Positions 1 through 14,200 of a DNA stretch of 64,000 bases are shown piece by piece. Every line of letters starts with the position of its first letter. The first letter of the stretch is position 1. Source of the DNA: Daucus carota subsp. sativus (Eukaryota > Streptophyta > Magnoliopsida > Apiales > Apiaceae); the NCBI RefSeq assembly GCF_001625215.2, contig NC_030384.2, positions 41,326,390 to 41,390,389 on the forward strand, in the 5' to 3' direction. Both the position numbers and the translations under genes were made by a program. Below the pieces are notes generated by a model. It was given only the letters and a program-made list of their open reading frames with translations. It made no database searches and had not been told where the DNA came from.

Positions 1-1018
1 CATGGCCCGGGAGGTGCGGTCTCTTGTCCAGTAAGGAGGATTGAAGACAAGATAAGGGAAGGAAGCGCCCTCCCCAGACATGGCCCGGGAGGTGCGGTCT
101 CTTGTCCAGTAAACAGGGATGAAGACGGGAATTGGGAAGGACACGTCCTCCCTATCAGGGCGCGTCCTTTGACTCAGAAGAGGCATAGTTATGAAATACA
201 TGATGAAAGAAAGAGGATGAGTGAGTCTCCGTGACGACCCTTCCGAGGGATATGAAGACTAGTTACCAAGCTCATTTGGTAGTTATCAGGCTCATCTGAT
301 AGTTCCCGGGCTCATCCGGGCATGATCTACAATCCTCAATCCTGCTATCTGCCGAGTTAACCCTCGTGTGGGGGCTTGAGGTGATCATGGCTCTTGAAGG
401 CCCTCCGGGGTAACACGAAGGCCGATCATATGTCTGGATCCTGTATTCTGGTGAGTTAGCCCTCATCGGGGGATTGAGACGATCGTGTAATTTGGCTCCT
501 TGTCTACCTTGTTTGAAGATGAAGACCTCACCGAGAGGTGAGGACGTGTCCCTGCACCTCGAGGGGTTAGTCATGGCTCCCCCAGATAACTTCTCCATAA
601 GAGTCGTGGACTCGTGGTAGATGCTATCTCTCGTAGTGGAGATATCGTTGAATCCGTGATCTATTTGGATTAGGAGTCTGAGGTAGTCATACTCAAGACT
701 AATTCTAACAGGAGTAGGATTCTCCAAGATGGGCCTTCGGCCTATCTCCGACCTTATTGCCAAGAGGCCTAGTCCTGATCAAACTAGGACTCCTGGTTCC
801 ATAGAACTACGTATGGCTTGATCCCCTATAAATATAGGGGTACGTAGGCACATTGGGGGATCATGAGTTGAGAGCACGTGAGACCAACTCAAAACTCTAA
901 TCTCAGCCACCCCCTAAAACAAACAACCACCACTCTCCAGCGACCAAAACCACCGTCACGGATCTTGATTCCGGCCGTGAACCTCATCTTTGTTGATTAC
1001 CAAATTCCTCTATCAACA
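1..1018. repeat. Left LTR (3' part)
   Basis: Matches 4595-5612 base for base in every line compared. It carries a TATA-like motif (TATAAATATA, 827-836) inside a short palindrome of C and G runs, a plausible promoter for the element. Near its visible start a unit of about 79 bases containing GGTGCGGTCTCTTGTCCAG is present twice. Confidence 0.9.
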
Positions 1019-4000
1019 AATTGGCGCTAGAAGGAGGGGCTATTCAAGATCTTCATCTTAGGAGGAAGAGATGTCACACGACGGAGATTCGCACGTAGAG
1101 GAGGAGCGTTTTCCGGCAGGGCGATGGCTAGAGCACAAAAGAGGAGGAGACCTTCATCTACTTTTTCAGAAAAAGGACGATATCTCCATCGGGAGTTTGA
1201 AGGAGGACGATCATCAACTAAATTCTAGGAGGTAACCTAATGTGCGAACAAGGTATTCTGGACCGGGGAGTCAGCGAAGGATGCGATTTTCGGAGACTTG
1301 ACACCTACGAAGAGGGTACGCCTCCCCCGGACAGAGTACACCTCCCCCGGAGAGAGTACACCTCCCCTGACAGGGTACGCCTCCAGGTGATGTGGTGTCC
1401 GACGACCACCGTGAGGAATTCATCCCTTGACACCTACGAAGAGGGTACGCCTCCCCCGGAGAGAGTACACCTCCCCTGACAGGGTACGCCTCCAGGTGAT
1501 GTGGTGTCTGACGACCACCGTGAGGAATGCATCCCTTGACACCTACGAAGAGGGTACGCCTCCCCCGGACAGGGTACACCTCCCCCGGATAGAGTACACC
1601 TCCCCAGGACAGGGTACACCTCCCTCTGACAGGGTACACCTCCAAGTGATGTGGTGCTCGACTACCACCGTGAGGAATGAATTCCCTGACACCTCCGAAG
1701 AAGGCGCACCTCCGGGTAAGATTCTCACAATGCTTTCGCATGTTATTGCTAACAAGTCTGTTGTGGTTTGAGTCTTTACGAGAAGGAGATCGCCTCCCTG
1801 GAAGCCTCAACGGTTTTCTGAAGGGGCGCGCCCTCCCCAGAGCAAGTAATTTGAGGTTCGCGAGAGGCGCATGTTGAAGGCCTGACCACGTGTGATGATA
1901 TGAACGGGAAGGTTACGAAGGGCGAGCTATTGAGATGGAACCTAGCTCGAAAAGTCGTAAGGGTGCGCGCCTTCCCCTGACCGGGCGCGCCCTCAGGTAA
2001 ATACTAAACTCCCCCAGTATTTGGTTCCCTAAGACTACTACATGTGTAAATTCACAGGTAATATGGTGTTACCTTTATGAGGAATACACCTCTTCGCCGT
2101 GAGGAGTAGTCGCACTTTCCTCCAACAAGGCGCGCCCTCCTAAAGGGGTACGCCATATCCAACCAGTATTCTATCAGAGAACGAATTGCGCGCCTCCCTC
2201 TGACAGGGCGCGCCCTCTGGTATGTCTGATGCATTAATTGCTTCATATGATACTTTGTGAAGACAAACATACTCAGGAAGGAGCTCACTAGTCTTGAAGA
2301 GGTCACGTCCCTCCCTAGGGCGCGTCCTCCCGGAAGTACTCATCACTTGAGGAAGCACATGAGGGCGCGCCCCCAGGATAATAATGTTGAGAAGGGAGAT
2401 GCTTCAAAGACGCGCCTCCTCCTAGTTGGACGCACCCCGAGTTCCAAGGTCATGTTTCCAGGGTTGATAATTTGGGAGGACGCGTCTTCCCCTAACAGGG
2501 CGCGTCGTGAGGTAACACTGACCATCAGTATTAAGTCGTATACATGATAAAGTGCAGGTCAAGTCTAACATGCTAAAGGAGCTGTCCATCTTGATGAGGG
2601 CGCGCCCTCCGTTCTACGGGAACGTAGCATGATACCTGCAAGGTCTTTGATTAAGGTACACTTAAGGCCTTTCAAAGGTTACCAAATTATCCATGACTAG
2701 CTCTGGGTACTATGAATTTTAACCATCCATGATACGCTCTGGATGTCATCCACGATTTACTCTGGATGCTATGATTATTTACGTGTCCATGATATGCTCT
2801 GGATACTATATTTGCGCATCCATAATACGCTCTGGACATTATACTTGCGCATCCATGATACGCTCTGGATCTTACATATTCATGATATGCTCTGGATAAC
2901 AGTTTATACTATTAATTCCCCATTGAGCTATTAGCTCTGGGACCCGTGCGATGCACCGGAGCTTTTTTAAACCACGATAAGATTCGTGATGCCTCGTATG
3001 GGATGATGTATGGACTGGGGAGTGGTCCTTTTGAATTTCTTAAGCAAGTGATTCACGCGTGAAAAAGTAAAGCTGCGCCAAAGGCCGCGCCCTCTACTTA
3101 ATCCTTGGAAAAGATCAAAAGAGCCTTACAAGTAAGGCTGCGCCCTCTGCTTATACAGTCCTTGAAAGAAAAGAAATATTGCAAGGCAGCGCCATCAGCC
3201 GCGCCCTCTGCTTAGGCAATTCTTTAACAAAAAGAATTAAAAGGGGTCATGTTATAACTAGGCGGCGCCATTCTGTAAGTCGCGCCTTATATTTACTATT
3301 CCCAGATACCATGGACACAGTAAGGCTGAAAAAAAAGCCACAAACCTTCGCACAGCGAAGGCGCGCCCTTCTTTTGTTGAAGTTCATTGGCGCGAATGTT
3401 ATGGTTGAATGTGTCATTTGGAAGGAATAAGCGAAGCTGCGCCACTGTCAACGACAGATAGGCCGCGCCCCCTGTTTTCTTTTGTCTACATAAAGATTGC
3501 TTATTATTTATGAACACATCAAGAAGACGCGACAGCCTCATGCTTAGCAACTTTGCTAAATGATCAAAGACACCGACATTATATACATGCAAGGCTTGTG
3601 CACAGCCTGCATCTTGGAATGTCGAGGAATAGAAGTGGCTTACGTCACGCCTCTATGCGCGGACGCGCTCTCGGAAGAGGATGTGTGGTATGGAGTAAAA
3701 ATTTCCCTGATATCTCCAATATCAAGAAAATTTGGGGAGTACTTGTTATAGCCAAATTTGGCTAGGTCCTTGTTGGGCCAAGTATGTACTTAGTTTAACT
3801 AAGTAAGACATGAATTGGGCTAAGAGTCCTATATAAAGGAAGGACGCGTCCTCCTGCTTATAAAGGGAGGACGCGACCGACCCTTGAAGACACTAGTCTG
3901 AACGGAAGGGCGCAGCCCTCCGTGACGCGACTGATCCGCCGATGTTGCGTATCTTAATGAAGAGGACGCGTCCTCCGCGTCGGAAGGAGGGATGTGTCCT

Positions 4001-4594
4001 CCAGGTCACACGTGTCCCATGAAGAGGACGCGTCCTCCTGCTTATAAGGGGAGGATGCGATCGACCCTTGGTGTTGCGTGAAGAGGAGGCGTCCTCCTGC
4101 TTATAAAGGGAGGATGCGACCGACCCTTGGTGTTGCTTGAAAAGGACGCGTCCTCCGAGTCACAAGGAGGGACGCCTTACTTGAGAGTGTTGATGGAGAG
4201 ACGCGACCGACCTCCGTCCACCCACGTCCTGTAATATGTGGAGGAGGGCACGCCCTCTTCGGAGGTGACCGAGGGGCGCGTCCCTTGTAAGAAGTTGACA
4301 ATGAGATGAAGACCAAGGGCGTGCCTTTAACGGGGTGTCCTCGCCTCCCCGGGGGCGCGACCTCATGTTAAAGAAGGACCTGTCTGATGTGTTGTAAGAA
4401 GGCTCTTCTTATGGGAGAGTGTACATTCGCTGAGACAACCCTTCCGAGGGAGACGAAGACCGTCCCTCCGGGGATAGGAAGACCTACCCCTCCGGGGGGG
4501 ATATGACGACCCCTCCGGGGGATACGACGACTCTTCCGAGGTGTTGTAGCTGTTTTTGTATATCATGTGGAGGGGAGGACGCGCCCTCCCCAGA
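1019..4594. repeat. LTR element interior: short tandem repeat blocks
   Basis: Several blocks follow each other. At 1300-1710 units of the form GGTACGCCTCC/AGTACACCTCC recur with a longer period of about 115 bases. At 2725-2900 units built on CATGATACGCTCTGGAT recur every 25-35 bases. At 3060-3480 GCGCCCTCTGCTTA-like units recur. At 3840-4160 a palindromic GAGGACGCGTCCTC unit recurs. No coding region is supported. The right-hand part (before 4595) includes the unseen start of the right LTR. Confidence 0.75.
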
Positions 4595-5612
4595 CATGGC
4601 CCGGGAGGTGCGGTCTCTTGTCCAGTAAGGAGGATTGAAGACAAGATAAGGGAAGGAAGCGCCCTCCCCAGACATGGCCCGGGAGGTGCGGTCTCTTGTC
4701 CAGTAAACAGGGATGAAGACGGGAATTGGGAAGGACACGTCCTCCCTATCAGGGCGCGTCCTTTGACTCAGAAGAGGCATAGTTATGAAATACATGATGA
4801 AAGAAAGAGGATGAGTGAGTCTCCGTGACGACCCTTCCGAGGGATATGAAGACTAGTTACCAAGCTCATTTGGTAGTTATCAGGCTCATCTGATAGTTCC
4901 CGGGCTCATCCGGGCATGATCTACAATCCTCAATCCTGCTATCTGCCGAGTTAACCCTCGTGTGGGGGCTTGAGGTGATCATGGCTCTTGAAGGCCCTCC
5001 GGGGTAACACGAAGGCCGATCATATGTCTGGATCCTGTATTCTGGTGAGTTAGCCCTCATCGGGGGATTGAGACGATCGTGTAATTTGGCTCCTTGTCTA
5101 CCTTGTTTGAAGATGAAGACCTCACCGAGAGGTGAGGACGTGTCCCTGCACCTCGAGGGGTTAGTCATGGCTCCCCCAGATAACTTCTCCATAAGAGTCG
5201 TGGACTCGTGGTAGATGCTATCTCTCGTAGTGGAGATATCGTTGAATCCGTGATCTATTTGGATTAGGAGTCTGAGGTAGTCATACTCAAGACTAATTCT
5301 AACAGGAGTAGGATTCTCCAAGATGGGCCTTCGGCCTATCTCCGACCTTATTGCCAAGAGGCCTAGTCCTGATCAAACTAGGACTCCTGGTTCCATAGAA
5401 CTACGTATGGCTTGATCCCCTATAAATATAGGGGTACGTAGGCACATTGGGGGATCATGAGTTGAGAGCACGTGAGACCAACTCAAAACTCTAATCTCAG
5501 CCACCCCCTAAAACAAACAACCACCACTCTCCAGCGACCAAAACCACCGTCACGGATCTTGATTCCGGCCGTGAACCTCATCTTTGTTGATTACCAAATT
5601 CCTCTATCAACA
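4595..5612. repeat. Right LTR (part shared with left LTR)
   Basis: Ends with CA at 5612, followed directly by host gene sequence beginning ATAAC (5613-5617), the likely right copy of a 5-bp target duplication. The other copy would lie outside the window. The TATA-like motif is at 5421-5430. The true start of this LTR is upstream of 4595. Confidence 0.88.
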
Positions 5613-7689
5613 ATAACCTTTGTAGTATTCTGCTATATCAAGCGGTTCCACCATCCTCCTATAGTTATTTCCTGCCATGAGGAGACAAAATGTGAATGAT
5701 TTTGCATCAGTTCTCCTCTCTTCATAAACAGCATTTGCCCAGCACTTTGTGAGACTTCTTTGGTGTTTGACCAATACTGCTTTAGTTACACTTTCATTTC
5801 GGCTTCGAGCTGAACTTTTGTAGGTGTCGTAATAACCTCCTCGAGTCCTTGTAGTCTTCTTGTACCACTCCATATAGGTCATTTCTATTTTCATCTTCTT
5901 CAAACTTTCATCTAAACCAACTTCATAAGCTTTGCGTTCTAAGGATTCCTTTTGCTTTGTCACAATTCTTCCGATCAAGTCTTTGTTCTGCAGTTGATTT
6001 TGTAGAAATTTGCAAGCATTAAATGTGTCAAGTGTAATCTTTAACAAATGTGAGTTCTGTTATTTTTAGTAGTTGCAAAAAAGTTTATAACTTTCTTAAT
6101 AAGTAGTTGAGATGTTAACATATTTTACCAGCGTATCATGAATTCCAATTGCTTGTAGCTGTAATGTGATCCCAGTGCGGAATGGATTGTTATCACACTC
6201 AACTAGATCAATCCCTCTAACAATTGCCTTGCTTTTAACTCCTTTCAAGAGCAATCCATAATCATTGAAGGGCAGATTCTTTGAACTAAAGGCCCATAAT
6301 AGTTCCAAGACTAACTCAGGTTTAGAGATACAAGCAAAGCGGGATTCAGAGCAGAAGAGGTATAAACCAAAGGACTTATATTTGCTTTCAAAACAGGACT
6401 CCGAGTCAATGGTGTTGTGGGGTGATAGAAACAACCCGGGAACTGGATCTTGTGTTGAGACGACATGCACAAAGCATGAATCCCAAGATGGCCGTCCTGA
6501 TATGGCTTTTTGAAGGCCCTCATTGCCAAGTAACGGTGACCCAAAAGTTAAGCAAATTGGGAATTTGGTTTTTCTGTACTCTATTTTCTTGTAGCTGTTG
6601 TTTAGCAGCCATATTGTGAACAGCGAGGCAACAGATCCCCCAAGAGAATGCCCAGTAATGATCAAGGGTTTCGTAGTATTAATCTGCAGCAGGACATACA
6701 ACCAACGAGTAAGGCCACACTTAGTATATAGTTACTACTATCTGTATGCTAATAGAAAACTTTCTCTATCATCGGTCACAATTTCATAATTTTCCAGCCA
6801 TTTCCATAACAGAATAGTGTTACTCAAAGAAGAACCATATCAGTATGAACCGTGAAAATCAAAGCAAATTAAACCAAACCAAACCAAACAAACAAAGTGT
6901 GCTCCACTCGTGAGCAAACTGTGTGGAAGGTAAGATATGTGCGAACCTATTAATTTTTTTTATCATAATATTAAAAGAATGAGTATCTAAATGACTAAAT
7001 CCAAAGCCAATGGTTAAACAGCCAAATTACAGAGATTTAATGATCTGTACATCCAATTATCAGTAAAAACATACTAAGCTAACAGTCTAACATACATATA
7101 ATACAATATGGAGAGAGTACCTTTTCTTGAATGAGTTGAGCAAGGAGAGAATGAAAAAGTTGTATAGCAAGGTTATGAAGAGAGAAGGAAGGGTTGGAAT
7201 TTGTGGAAAGAAAATCAAAGAGCTCCAAGTTGAGGTCTGCAGATGAAACTAAACGTTGACCCTCACCACGAAGATCACTAGAAATCATAGAGCAAGAAAA
7301 AGCTATAATAGTAACATCAGTAGAATTTCGAGCATCAAAAAATTCAAAACGTTTGTATTTAACAGTCTGAGGCAACAAGCTCGAATTAACTTCTTTTGGG
7401 GTTTCTTCATTGACCTTCATAATATGAGCCCAACAGTTGGATATAAGATCTGAGCATATCAGAAGATTCCCCAACTCTTCTTCATGGTTGAACCTACACA
7501 AAACAAACAAGTACCCCAAAGATGAGAAAATGGAACCAAATAAAAAACACAGAACATGATCCAAATGACATGTTAATTTCTTTGTAAACTATATATTGAT
7601 ATATTCGGTAGATTTGAAAACATCGTATATTTATCTGAAAATTAAAAGGTATTATAAGATTGCTCGAAGGGAGTTTACTGGTTCATCAT
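5613..7689 (-). pseudogene. SAG101: SAG101-like lipase-fold immune gene, 3' end cut by LTR insertion
   Basis: Member of the EDS1/PAD4/SAG101 family, which acts as nucleocytoplasmic heterodimers with EDS1 downstream of TIR-type immune receptors (known of the family). Exons: 7679-7689, 7121-7493, 6129-6683, 5613-6038, all joining in phase. Start M-M-N-Q lies in a tiny first exon. Exon 3 holds the lipase elbow GHSLGG and the segment CLTFGSPLLGNEGLQ. Exon 4 starts the EP domain (YMEWYKK, RTRGGYYDTYK, RRMVEPLDIAEYYKGY). Right after that tyrosine the sequence enters the retrotransposon and a stop follows within two codons, so about 130 residues present in the 11298-14200 copy are absent here. The lost end may survive left of the window. 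Exon 3 is exactly 555 bases in both copies. A truncated protein may still be made; calling it a pseudogene is inference. Confidence 0.88.
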
Positions 7690-10904: not shown

Positions 10905-11297
10905 TTATATATACAGAGCTACTCGTTATTACGACTCAGCTAAACCAAAACATGATTTTATTTTTTTAACATGAACCTCAAGTCATAAATAAATTCTAAA
11001 GAGTTAAAAAAAACCCTGAAAACTCAGGTCGGTCTCGCTTATTCACAACCATGAACCATGTACCGAAATTCCTTATCGTAAGTGAATCTAACTAAGTAGC
11101 CATGCTTGCTTGCACGTTATTAAGATCAAAACAAGCCAGCTCATGACTAATGCTTTGCCAGTTCTTCCTGTACAAAAGTTTAAGCACGCATCTACGAAAT
11201 CAATGACACACACACACATATCATAAGAACTCCCATCCAAAGTTTACTCGTTTTCTTGTTTTCGCGTCATTAGCTTCACATGAACTCTGTCAGCATA
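10905..11297. other. Intergenic, 3' flank of SAG101-like gene
   Basis: AT-rich sequence that includes the 3' untranslated region of the downstream minus-strand gene. No gene or repeat recognised beyond a short CA run near 11210. Confidence 0.5.
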
Positions 11298-14200
11298 TTA
11301 CAACAAAGCTTCATAACTTCTAGCCCTCATATAATTAGCCAAAGGAGATTTGTAAGAATCTCCTTTCTTATCACTGTAGAGGCTCCACCATAACTTGAAG
11401 CTGCTTCCTTCCAAGAAAATCTCAGGGTCTACTATATGCTTATCTATCGAACCCATAAAATACTCCTCAAACTTGTTCAGTTTTCGGAATAGCTCCTCAT
11501 TCTCGGGAGAGCTCTCTTCATTGCTTAACATTTTGACCAACATTAATGCCTCTTCCACATGTGCCCAAAAGCAAGAATCCTCATTAAAACTACAACTTTT
11601 AGTCCTCTGACTAGGTGTGCTTTGCATTTCATTTAGCCATTTCTCCAGTAGAATATAATGCTCTGATCTTCCTCCGGCCCAGTAGTCTTTCTGTCCTTGT
11701 TTATAACCTTTGTAGTATTCTGCTATATCAAGCGGTTCCACCATCCTCCTATAGTTATTTCCTGCCATGAGGAGACGAAACGGGAAGGATTTTCCATCAG
11801 TCCTCTTCGCTTCATAAACAGCATTTGCCCAGCACTTTGTTAGACTTCTTTGGTATTTGACCAATTTTGCTTTACTTACAGTTTCATCTCGGTTTCTAGT
11901 TGAACTTTTGTAGGTGTCGTAGTAACCTCCTCGAGTCCTTGTCGTCTTCTTGTACCACTCCATATAGGCCATTTCTGTTTTCATTTTTTTTAAACTTTCA
12001 TCTAAACCAACTTGATAAGCTTTGCGTTCGAAGAATTCCTTTTGCTTTGTTTCAATTCTTCTGATCATGACATTGTTCTGCAACTGAGTCTGTAAAATTT
12101 TGAAAGCATTAAATTTGCCACGTATGATCTTGTACAAGTGCATACTTCATTTTTACGAAAGTTTTGGCTGTTGCAAAAACTGAAAAAAGGTTTTAAATTT
12201 GCTGAAAATGTAATAAGATGGTAACATAATTTTACCTGCATATCATGAATTCCAATTGCCTGTAGCTGTAATGTGATCCCAGTGCACAATGGATCGTTAT
12301 CAAATCCAGCTAAACGTGTGCCTTTAACAATTGCCTTACCTTTGAGGCCTTCCAAAACCAATCCATAATCACCAAATGGGCGATTCTGTGAACTAAAGAT
12401 GCCCAATATCTCCAAGACAAACTCGGGTTCAGAGAAACAAGCAACACCAGATTCAGAGCAAAATAGGTATAAACCAAAAGATTTATATTGACTTGTGGAA
12501 TTCGACACCGAGTCAATAGTGTTGTGGGGTAAGAGGAACAATCCAGGTACTGGGTCATGCTTTAATACGACATGCACAAAGCATGAATCCAAAGATGGCC
12601 GTGCTGATATGGCTTTTTGAAGGCCCTCATTGCCAAGTAATGGTGACCCAAAAGTTAAGCAAATTGGATATTTGGTTTTTCTGTACTCTATTTTCTTGTA
12701 GCTGTTGTTTAGCAGCCATATTGTGAAAAGTGAGGCAACAGATCCACCAAGAGAATGCCCAGTTATGATCAAGGGTTTCGTAGTATCGATCTGCAGTAGA
12801 CATAAAACCAACGAGTAAGGCTACACTTGCTACATAGTTGCCACTATTTGTTTGCTTACTACATGATGATTATCAAATAGGTCTAAGCAATCTCCAAACC
12901 ATCCATAAATATATTTAGCCTTTTCCACCTCAAATGTTAATATTGTGGTAGGCACACTTATATTCATAACAGAACCATATTAGTATCGTGTTTTAAAAGG
13001 AAAGCAAACCAAATTACACATACCAACTGTACTCCAATCGCAAAGGGGAAATTGGGGATGGCTTGATAATTGATATACACCATTCACCAACGTTAATCTA
13101 TTCTAAAAGAGTAACGTCATTTATCCATTCCTATATATTGATAAAATGAGTGTTTCTATATTCATGATGGTGTTATTTTGAAAAGAACATTAGTGATGAT
13201 ATCATATTATCATTTTCTAAAAGTCAACATGGGTTTTATCATATACAAGTCAAACAGCCAAACTACAGAGATTTCACGATCTGTATCACTAATTATCAGC
13301 AAATTATACACAAAGGTTTCCCCCCAACACATACCCATAGAGAGGTAGGGGGGAGAGGGAGAGCCGGAGAGGGAGGGAGGAGAGAGAGAGTACCTTTTCC
13401 TGAGACAGTTGAGCAAGGAGAGAATGAAAAAGTTGTATAGCAAGGTTATTTATAGAGAAGGACGGGTTAGAATTTGTGGAAAGAAAATCAAAATGCTTCA
13501 AGTCGAGGTCTGCAGATGAAACCAAACGTTGACCCTCACCATGAAGATCAATAGAAATGCAGGAAGAAAAAGCAATAACAGCAAGACCACGAGAATCTTG
13601 AGCATCAAAACGTTTGTATCTAACAGTTTGAGGCAACAAGCCCAGGTTCACAACTTGCGGGGTTTCTTCATTGACCTTGCGATTATAAGCCCAACAACTG
13701 GATAGAAGATCTGAGCATACCAGATGATTCCCCAACTCTTGTTCATAGGTGAACCTACAAAAAACAAATACTCCCTCCGTCCCTATTTATCTGTCCACTT
13801 TGGAAGTAAAAATTTGTCCCTATTTATCTGTCCATTTATATTTTCAAAACTAATTTAATGATAGTTTTTCAAATATAACTCCATAATTTCAATTTTCAAG
13901 GCTTGACTTATTTAAAACTTGGTTGAATTCATGTTTTCAAGACATAAAGTAGGGGTATTCCACCATTTTCAAGATATTAATTAGAGGTATTTAATGAAAA
14001 AGTTCATGCAATCAATTATTCCTTGGTATGTGTTTTTTTTCCCAAAATGGACAGATAAAAAGGGACGGAGGGAGTATAAAACAAGGAAATTAAATAAAAA
14101 ATTACACAAATCAACGCAAATGATTTATTGAATTTTGTGCACGAGTCGCAAAACATAATACATATGTGTTTGAAAAGTGAAGGAATGTTTACTGGTTCAT
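11298..14200 (-). CDS. SAG101: SAG101-like (EDS1 family) lipase-like immune protein
   Basis: Complete copy of the tandem pair. Exons: 14193-14200, 13394-13754, 12236-12790, 11298-12128; total 1755 bases, 584 residues (AtSAG101 is about 540). The start M-N-Q comes from an 8-base first exon, spliced in the same phase as in the other copy. Exon 2 gives the N-terminal part (ELGNHLVCSDLLSSCW). Exon 3 gives the alpha/beta hydrolase core with GHSLGG and CLTFGSPLLGNEGLQ. Exon 4 is the EP domain (RTRGGYYDTYKSS, RRMVEPLDIAEYYKGY, CFWAHVEEAL). Family knowledge: pairs with EDS1 and helper NLRs in TIR-receptor immunity; hydrolase activity is not needed. For exon 4 I chose the acceptor before ATC ATA CGT because the upstream alternatives meet stops. 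Intron 1 (13755-14192) contains a Stowaway-like MITE missing from the other copy. PAD4 is the main alternative but fits less well. Confidence 0.85.
13771..14074. mobile_element. Stowaway-like MITE in intron 1 of SAG101-like gene
   Basis: The left end CTCCCTCCGTCCC (13771) and the right end GGGACGGAGGGAG (ending 14074) form terminal inverted repeats flanked by TA on both sides, the Tc1/mariner (Stowaway) signature. Length is 304 bases, without coding sequence. It accounts for the longer intron 1 here compared with the truncated copy (438 versus 185 bases). Confidence 0.9.

Follow-up and report, generated by a model that had tools for sequence, protein, structure and literature searches.

A non-coding LTR retrotransposon splits the last exon of one of two tandem SAG101-like genes in carrot

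A stretch of 64,000 nucleotides of the carrot genome (Daucus carota subsp. sativus, C4:41326390-41390389; the window) contains two tandem SAG101-like genes. One of them, SAG101-A, breaks off within an exon at the end of a long terminal repeat (LTR). Is this break a real retrotransposon insertion, how old is it, and what does it leave of the gene? All positions are those of the window unless a chromosome is named, and negative coordinates denote the flank fetched to its left.

The split gene and its intact sister

The exons of the two minus-strand genes were inferred from splice motifs and homology. In the SAG101-A model, exon 1 with the start codon occupies 7679..7689, exon 2 occupies 7121..7493, and exon 3, with the lipase-like domain recognised by Pfam, occupies 6129..6683. 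All three introns have GT/AG ends. The kept part of exon 4 (5613..6038, also with a Pfam match) has 142 codons and runs into TGT TGA of the LTR (5612-5607). As it stands, the gene encodes 456 aa: 455 codons of its own and one LTR codon for Cys (TGT), followed by TGA. The corresponding exons of SAG101-B are at 14193..14200 (with the start codon), 13394..13754, 12236..12790 (lipase-like domain, Pfam) and 11298..12128 (complete EP domain, positions 1-210 of 211 of Pfam EDS1_EP), giving a model of 584 aa. The domain order is Lipase_3 and a full EDS1_EP in SAG101-B, and Lipase_3 and an EP domain in two pieces in SAG101-A. The lipase-like domain of carrot SAG101-A contains GHSLGG, whereas Arabidopsis SAG101 has no catalytic Ser. 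Intron 1 of SAG101-B (438 bp) carries a MITE-like insert at 13771-14074, presumably Stowaway-like, whose inverted ends read CTCCCTCCGTCCC and which is flanked by TA on either side; the 185 bp of SAG101-A intron 1 are too short to hold it.

The right LTR ends with CA at 5611-5612, and the host exon starts at 5613 with ATAACCTTTGTAG, which SAG101-B carries uninterrupted at 11703. The LTR end and the resumption of the exon as in the sister gene were thus both seen where an earlier note, made from the window only, had placed them. The site is fixed to the base. At the left junction the flank ends with CCTTGTTTATAAC and the element begins with TGTTATAG; at the right junction the element ends with TATCAACA and the flank begins with ATAACCTTTG. 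In short form, ATAAC stands before TGTTATAG and again after ATCAACA, which is a target-site duplication of 5 bp, with its right copy at 5613..5617 (plus strand, by flank comparison) and its left copy at -855 to -851. The genome reads CCCAGTAGTCTTTCTGGCCTTGTTTATAAC to the left of the element and ATAACCTTTGTAGTATTCTGC to the right, and SAG101-B has CCCAGTAGTCTTTCTGTCCTTGTTTATAACCTTTGTAGTATTCTGC in one piece. The note had called for an extension to the left, and all that it expected there is present: the LTR end at -850, the second ATAAC and the rest of the exon. At the DNA level this confirms both the finding of the note and its reading. The severed exon end directly adjoins the junction, as the 479 bp ending at -851 align with 11229-11707 of the sister gene with 23 mismatches and zero gaps (95.2% identity). 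The BLAST row for this match, 94.66% over 487 bp, included 8 LTR bases, which the 479-bp figure leaves out.

A six-frame profile search of the genome placed the severed piece at C4:41325165-41325536, where it covers EDS1_EP 85-210; the piece kept in SAG101-A covers positions 2-86 of 211. About 59% of the profile is severed (from about 86 to 210 of 211), in agreement with the earlier statement that the cut removes the second half of the EP domain. The cut falls right after the conserved EPLDIAEYY block, at the equivalent of about residue 394 of Arabidopsis SAG101 (numbering of the 7xjp chain, by offset). A single-sequence AlphaFold2 model of the SAG101-B EP exon was poor (mean pLDDT 48.5) and was set aside. 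If the two flanks are joined with one ATAAC and without the insert, 589 codons are open. Over these 589 codons, the severed part included, the SAG101-A model is free of further stops and frameshifts, and its splice sites are unbroken.

Across 584 aligned codons, SAG101-A and SAG101-B have dS 0.27 and dN 0.096, a ratio of 0.36 (counting method). The values are 0.30, 0.114 and 0.38 for the 450 kept codons, and 0.16, 0.039 and 0.24 for the 134 severed ones. The highest dN/dS of any part is 0.67 (codons 385-455), and every tested part is below 1. Judged from these sequences, the pair is old. Its two members resemble each other far more towards the end of exon 4 and in the 3' non-coding part (window 5671; past the element, from -856 to around -1683) than in exon 3 or the introns. 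Identity in 120-base windows stays at 0.90-0.94 into the 3' non-coding part, and windows that are mostly intron have 0.45-0.72. Silent divergence is uneven, 0.41 in exon 3 versus 0.12 to 0.16 in codons 385-589 (Fisher p = 0.0007, on rounded counts). The uneven silent divergence, together with the high identity running into the 3' non-coding part, suggests that the 3' end of the pair underwent gene conversion long ago, before the insertion.

Two alternatives to a recent disruption of a working gene have to be weighed here. Identical LTRs and many near-identical copies elsewhere are the usual setting of misassembly, and a join artefact at 5612 is what the earlier note had named as fatal to its reading. 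However, both junctions are clean and share the 5-bp duplication, on either side the exon picks up at the exact base, and the flanks joined once remain open for 589 codons; the element contains 0 N. The artefact was rejected as having next to no probability; the junctions have the form left by an inserted retrotransposon and not that of an assembly join. The gene could also have been a pseudogene before the element arrived, as the A-B dN/dS of 0.36 overall, rising to 0.67 in one part, does not indicate strong constraint everywhere. This is very unlikely and was rejected as well. The 589 codons are open, the splice sites are intact, and dN/dS is below 1 throughout and as low as 0.24 in the severed part, although this ratio cannot tell A from B. 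With that reservation, the sequences give no sign that SAG101-A was dead before the insertion.

Structure, family and age of the element

The element spans -850 to 5612 (6463 bp) and is antisense to SAG101-A. Its features are all given on the plus strand. The left LTR is represented in the window by 1..1018, which equals 4595-5612 at 1018/1018 bases; the match extends 851 bases past the left edge of the window and stops at the TG of TGTTATAG, so that the full LTR runs from -850 to 1018. The right LTR, TGTTATAG...TATCAACA, lies at 3744..5612; its start was first guessed from the polypurine-tract-like sequence, and the left flank bore the guess out. Both LTRs have 1869 bp and differ at 0/1869 positions. 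The identity of the LTRs claimed in the earlier note has held over this whole length, but the length of 1018 bases given there was set by the window edge. The internal region (1019..3743, 2725 bp) contains a primer binding site, TGGCGCTAGAAGGAGGGG, at 1022..1039, after the left LTR, which we take to fit tRNA-Asn, and ends with the polypurine-tract-like sequence AAATTTGGGGAGTACT at 3728..3743, directly before the right LTR. Both are repeated across the family. The element therefore has the marks of an LTR retrotransposon: a direct LTR pair with TG...CA ends, a 5-bp duplication, a primer binding site and a polypurine tract. The split of an exon in place, with such an LTR pair and duplication, is as in other plant genes disrupted by LTR retrotransposons, but the target here is an immune gene of the SAG101 type. 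The breaking of a duplicated gene by a mobile element is a well-known and ordinary kind of event.

The sole frame of at least 120 aa lying wholly inside the internal region (1271-1912, minus strand) matches no Pfam family at E 0.01, and neither do the three scanned LTR frames. The element is non-coding and non-autonomous (LARD-like), in that no gag or pol domain is recognised in frames of at least 120 aa. By motif match only, the LTR contains the word TATAAA at 5421 and three others. The TATA-like motif at 5421 points rightwards, into SAG101-A in antisense. The words AATAAA, AATGAA, ATTAAA and AAGAAA are all absent from the LTR strand that a SAG101-A transcript would read.

The LTR end with the primer binding site occurs at 157 places of the genome, and the polypurine tract with the LTR start at 103, each with at most 2 mismatches; the reversed-pattern controls gave 0 in both cases. 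Among 100 listed places of each kind, at least 74 primer-site places have a polypurine-tract place at most 25 kb downstream on the same strand, with a spacing under 4.5 kb in at least 57 of these listed pairs and of 9-13 kb in at least nine. A 3-kb piece of a longer relative (C3:1233500-1236500), matching both the LTR end with the primer site and the polypurine tract with the LTR start with 1 mismatch each, contains an open gypsy pol frame of 1000 aa. This frame has RVT_1, RT_RNaseH and RVT_3, of which the last is a second domain of the RNase H type; an integrase zinc domain also matches, below the cut-off. The longer relative may supply the proteins by which the non-coding copies are moved.

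A second RNase H domain is a mark of the Tat/Retand group of gypsy elements. Kwolek et al. suggest a recent spread of non-autonomous copies of carrot DcRetand, a Ty3/gypsy family with an f0 set of truncated copies (PMC9324142). In view of this suggestion and of the second RNase H domain of the longer relative, which also has a gypsy reverse transcriptase, we infer that the element is probably a non-autonomous Tat/Retand derivative, that is, a copy of the DcRetand type. The likeness is judged from the published description of DcRetand.

For comparison of LTR pairs, 19 places (20 stretches) were fetched from a listing in which 40 of 971 candidates were scored. The sample leans to close relatives, and the listed places at C1:3.79 Mb, C3:45.32 Mb and C9:6.11 Mb lie outside it. 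Thirteen places have two-LTR copies, 12 of them single elements and one an array whose outer LTRs were measured; at the other 6/19 the LTRs are single or no pair was resolved. With the present element included (n=14), the LTRs differ at 0 positions in ten copies, at 1 in three, and at 3 in the array. Matching 5-bp flanks are present in 13/14, the exception (L035) having TTACT and CATAC. The family is young, with identical LTRs in 10/14 measured copies. The internal regions of the copies differ from that of this element by up to 90 substitutions, and therefore the LTR identity is not an assembly collapse across the family.

With 0/1869 differences, the 95% upper bound of K is 0.0016. This corresponds to 62,000 years at 1.3e-8, the substitution rate used by Kwolek et al. 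(PMC9324142). At the alternative rate of 7e-9 it corresponds to 115,000 years. The insertion is thus probably younger than 0.06-0.12 Myr by its LTRs, with the reservation that gene conversion between them could also give zero differences. In two active Copia subfamilies of carrot, 78/78 and 99/99 sites were polymorphic among the compared genomes (PMC9324142), so this insertion is likely to be polymorphic among carrots too. As a marker in a crop's EDS1-SAG101-NRG1 pathway it is exact to the base and easy to genotype, and it is probably recent enough to vary among accessions; it also records a recent move of a non-coding LTR family into a gene.

Two of these places, both on the same chromosome as the element, deserve mention. 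One is the array, of the form LTR-internal-LTR-internal-LTR (C4:33923600-33937000) with GTAAC on both outer sides. The other is a solo LTR (1329-3197 of the stretch C4:44443500-44447800) with GTCCA on both sides, identical to the LTR of the element at 1869/1869 positions; it is probably a very young copy whose interior was lost by LTR recombination.

SAG101-like genes of the carrot genome

The EP exon of SAG101-B scores 148 bits with Arabidopsis SAG101, 63 with PAD4 and at most 49 with EDS1 chains. On these scores it is of the SAG101 type, neither PAD4 nor EDS1, and the two tandem genes are SAG101-like, as the earlier note had them. The scores are those of SAG101-B, through which SAG101-A was classed as its close tandem copy. 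The lipase exon alone does not discriminate (72 bits with PAD4, 70 with SAG101).

The profile search found 14 EDS1_EP matches in the genome. A second SAG101-like tandem pair is located on C2. The EP exon of one member (L012) scores 193 bits with SAG101 and 73 with PAD4; the other (L011) is its close copy by alignment and is classed by that score. Arabidopsis SAG101 is nearer to the C2 pair than to SAG101-B (193 bits, for the L012 EP exon, versus 148). Besides SAG101-A, three SAG101-like EP exons have no internal stop, those of SAG101-B and of the C2 pair. By appearance, the match at C6:39188179 is PAD4-like, and those at C4:26.83-26.85 Mb, C6:9623106, C7:38803763 and C7:38809573 are EDS1-like.

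Among the listed matches in the open-licence literature (titles and abstract openings), we found no transposon-hit or truncated SAG101 and no study of carrot SAG101. A listed paper on gene loss in Cuscuta names SAG101 once (PMC6041341).

Predicted consequences for EDS1-SAG101-NRG1 signalling

The N-terminal helix of EDS1 docks into the N-terminal groove of its partner, and the EP domains of the two proteins jointly form a cavity (PMC8185089). ADPr-ATP occupies the EP-domain pocket, and the EP domain of SAG101 rotates (PMC10442000). With ADPr-ATP bound, the EP domain of SAG101 changes in a way that lets NRG1 bind (PMC12315475).

In our reading, to which we give a probability of about 0.93, the insertion of a non-coding LTR retrotransposon split SAG101-A and left what would be a loss-of-function allele of very recent origin, with SAG101-B and the C2 pair covering for it. 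The element, presumably moved in trans by an autonomous relative of the Ty3/gypsy type, entered the last exon in antisense orientation with a 5-bp stagger. The remaining frame covers the whole lipase-like domain, about the first 40% of the EP domain and one LTR-encoded Cys before the stop. Such a product would be unable to form the cavity of two EP domains needed for binding the TIR-made nucleotide and for engaging NRG1. Lacking most of the EP domain, it should be incapable of signalling. The transcript, having no normal 3' end, would probably be unstable. The absence of the poly(A)-signal words and the antisense TATA-like motif favour silence over a stable truncated product, though they are not proof; a stable truncated transcript is possible, as plant poly(A) signals are loose. 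Since the three other SAG101-like EP exons are intact, the loss of a redundant copy is the likeliest outcome, and with three related copies left a strong effect is not expected. With its paralogues intact, SAG101-A is a candidate for a precise natural knock-out in an immune pathway of a crop. If some carrots have the insertion and others do not, they would provide a natural test of SAG101 dosage.

The truncated gene could alternatively be expressed as a competitor, its lipase-like domain holding EDS1 in dimers unable to bind NRG1. The lipase-like domain is intact within 455 open codons of the gene itself, EDS1 docking uses the N-terminal groove of the partner (PMC8185089), and an NRG1-like gene seems to be present in the genome. 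There is also a published precedent in NRG1C, a truncated helper which acts against its neighbours on the opposite side of this complex (PMC12315475). However, half an EP domain would probably misfold, the four poly(A)-signal words are all absent from the LTR strand read by the transcript, and the insertion seems too recent for selection in favour of a truncated form to have become visible. We consider expression as a competitor highly improbable. Slightly less probable still is an extension of it: a truncated SAG101 specific to carrot would segregate, bind EDS1 but not NRG1 and damp TIR-triggered cell death, with antisense RNA possibly added by a promoter of the right LTR that points into the gene. 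It would be an EDS1-side counterpart of NRG1C. The two cases are alike in that a truncated neighbour of intact copies belongs to the same pathway. However, NRG1C is conserved in Brassicaceae and has been shown to be an inhibitor (PMC12315475), whereas the SAG101-A truncation is young and, as an inhibitor, hypothetical.

The presence of an NRG1-like partner gene is suggested by the sequence of another region of C4. The RPW8 family has nine matches in the genome. One of them (26842605-26843015, minus strand) falls, together with a leucine-rich repeat frame (26838767-26839642, minus strand), into C4:26834685-26847266 (L014, L017, L022, L023, L024), where a cluster of EDS1-family EP exons encloses an NRG1-like helper NLR. 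The LRR frame, in L022, is closest to At5g66900: it scores 218 and 216 bits with chains of At5g66900 and At5g66890, which we take to be NRG1A and NRG1C. Its scores are lower with an RPW8-domain protein in 8zf0 (170) and with At5g04720 and ADR1 (169 and 149). The RPW8 match and the LRR frame would belong to one gene. Nothing plainly on a linkage between EDS1-family and NRG1 genes appeared among the listed literature matches. The EDS1 fragments at C4:26838128-26838615 contain stops.
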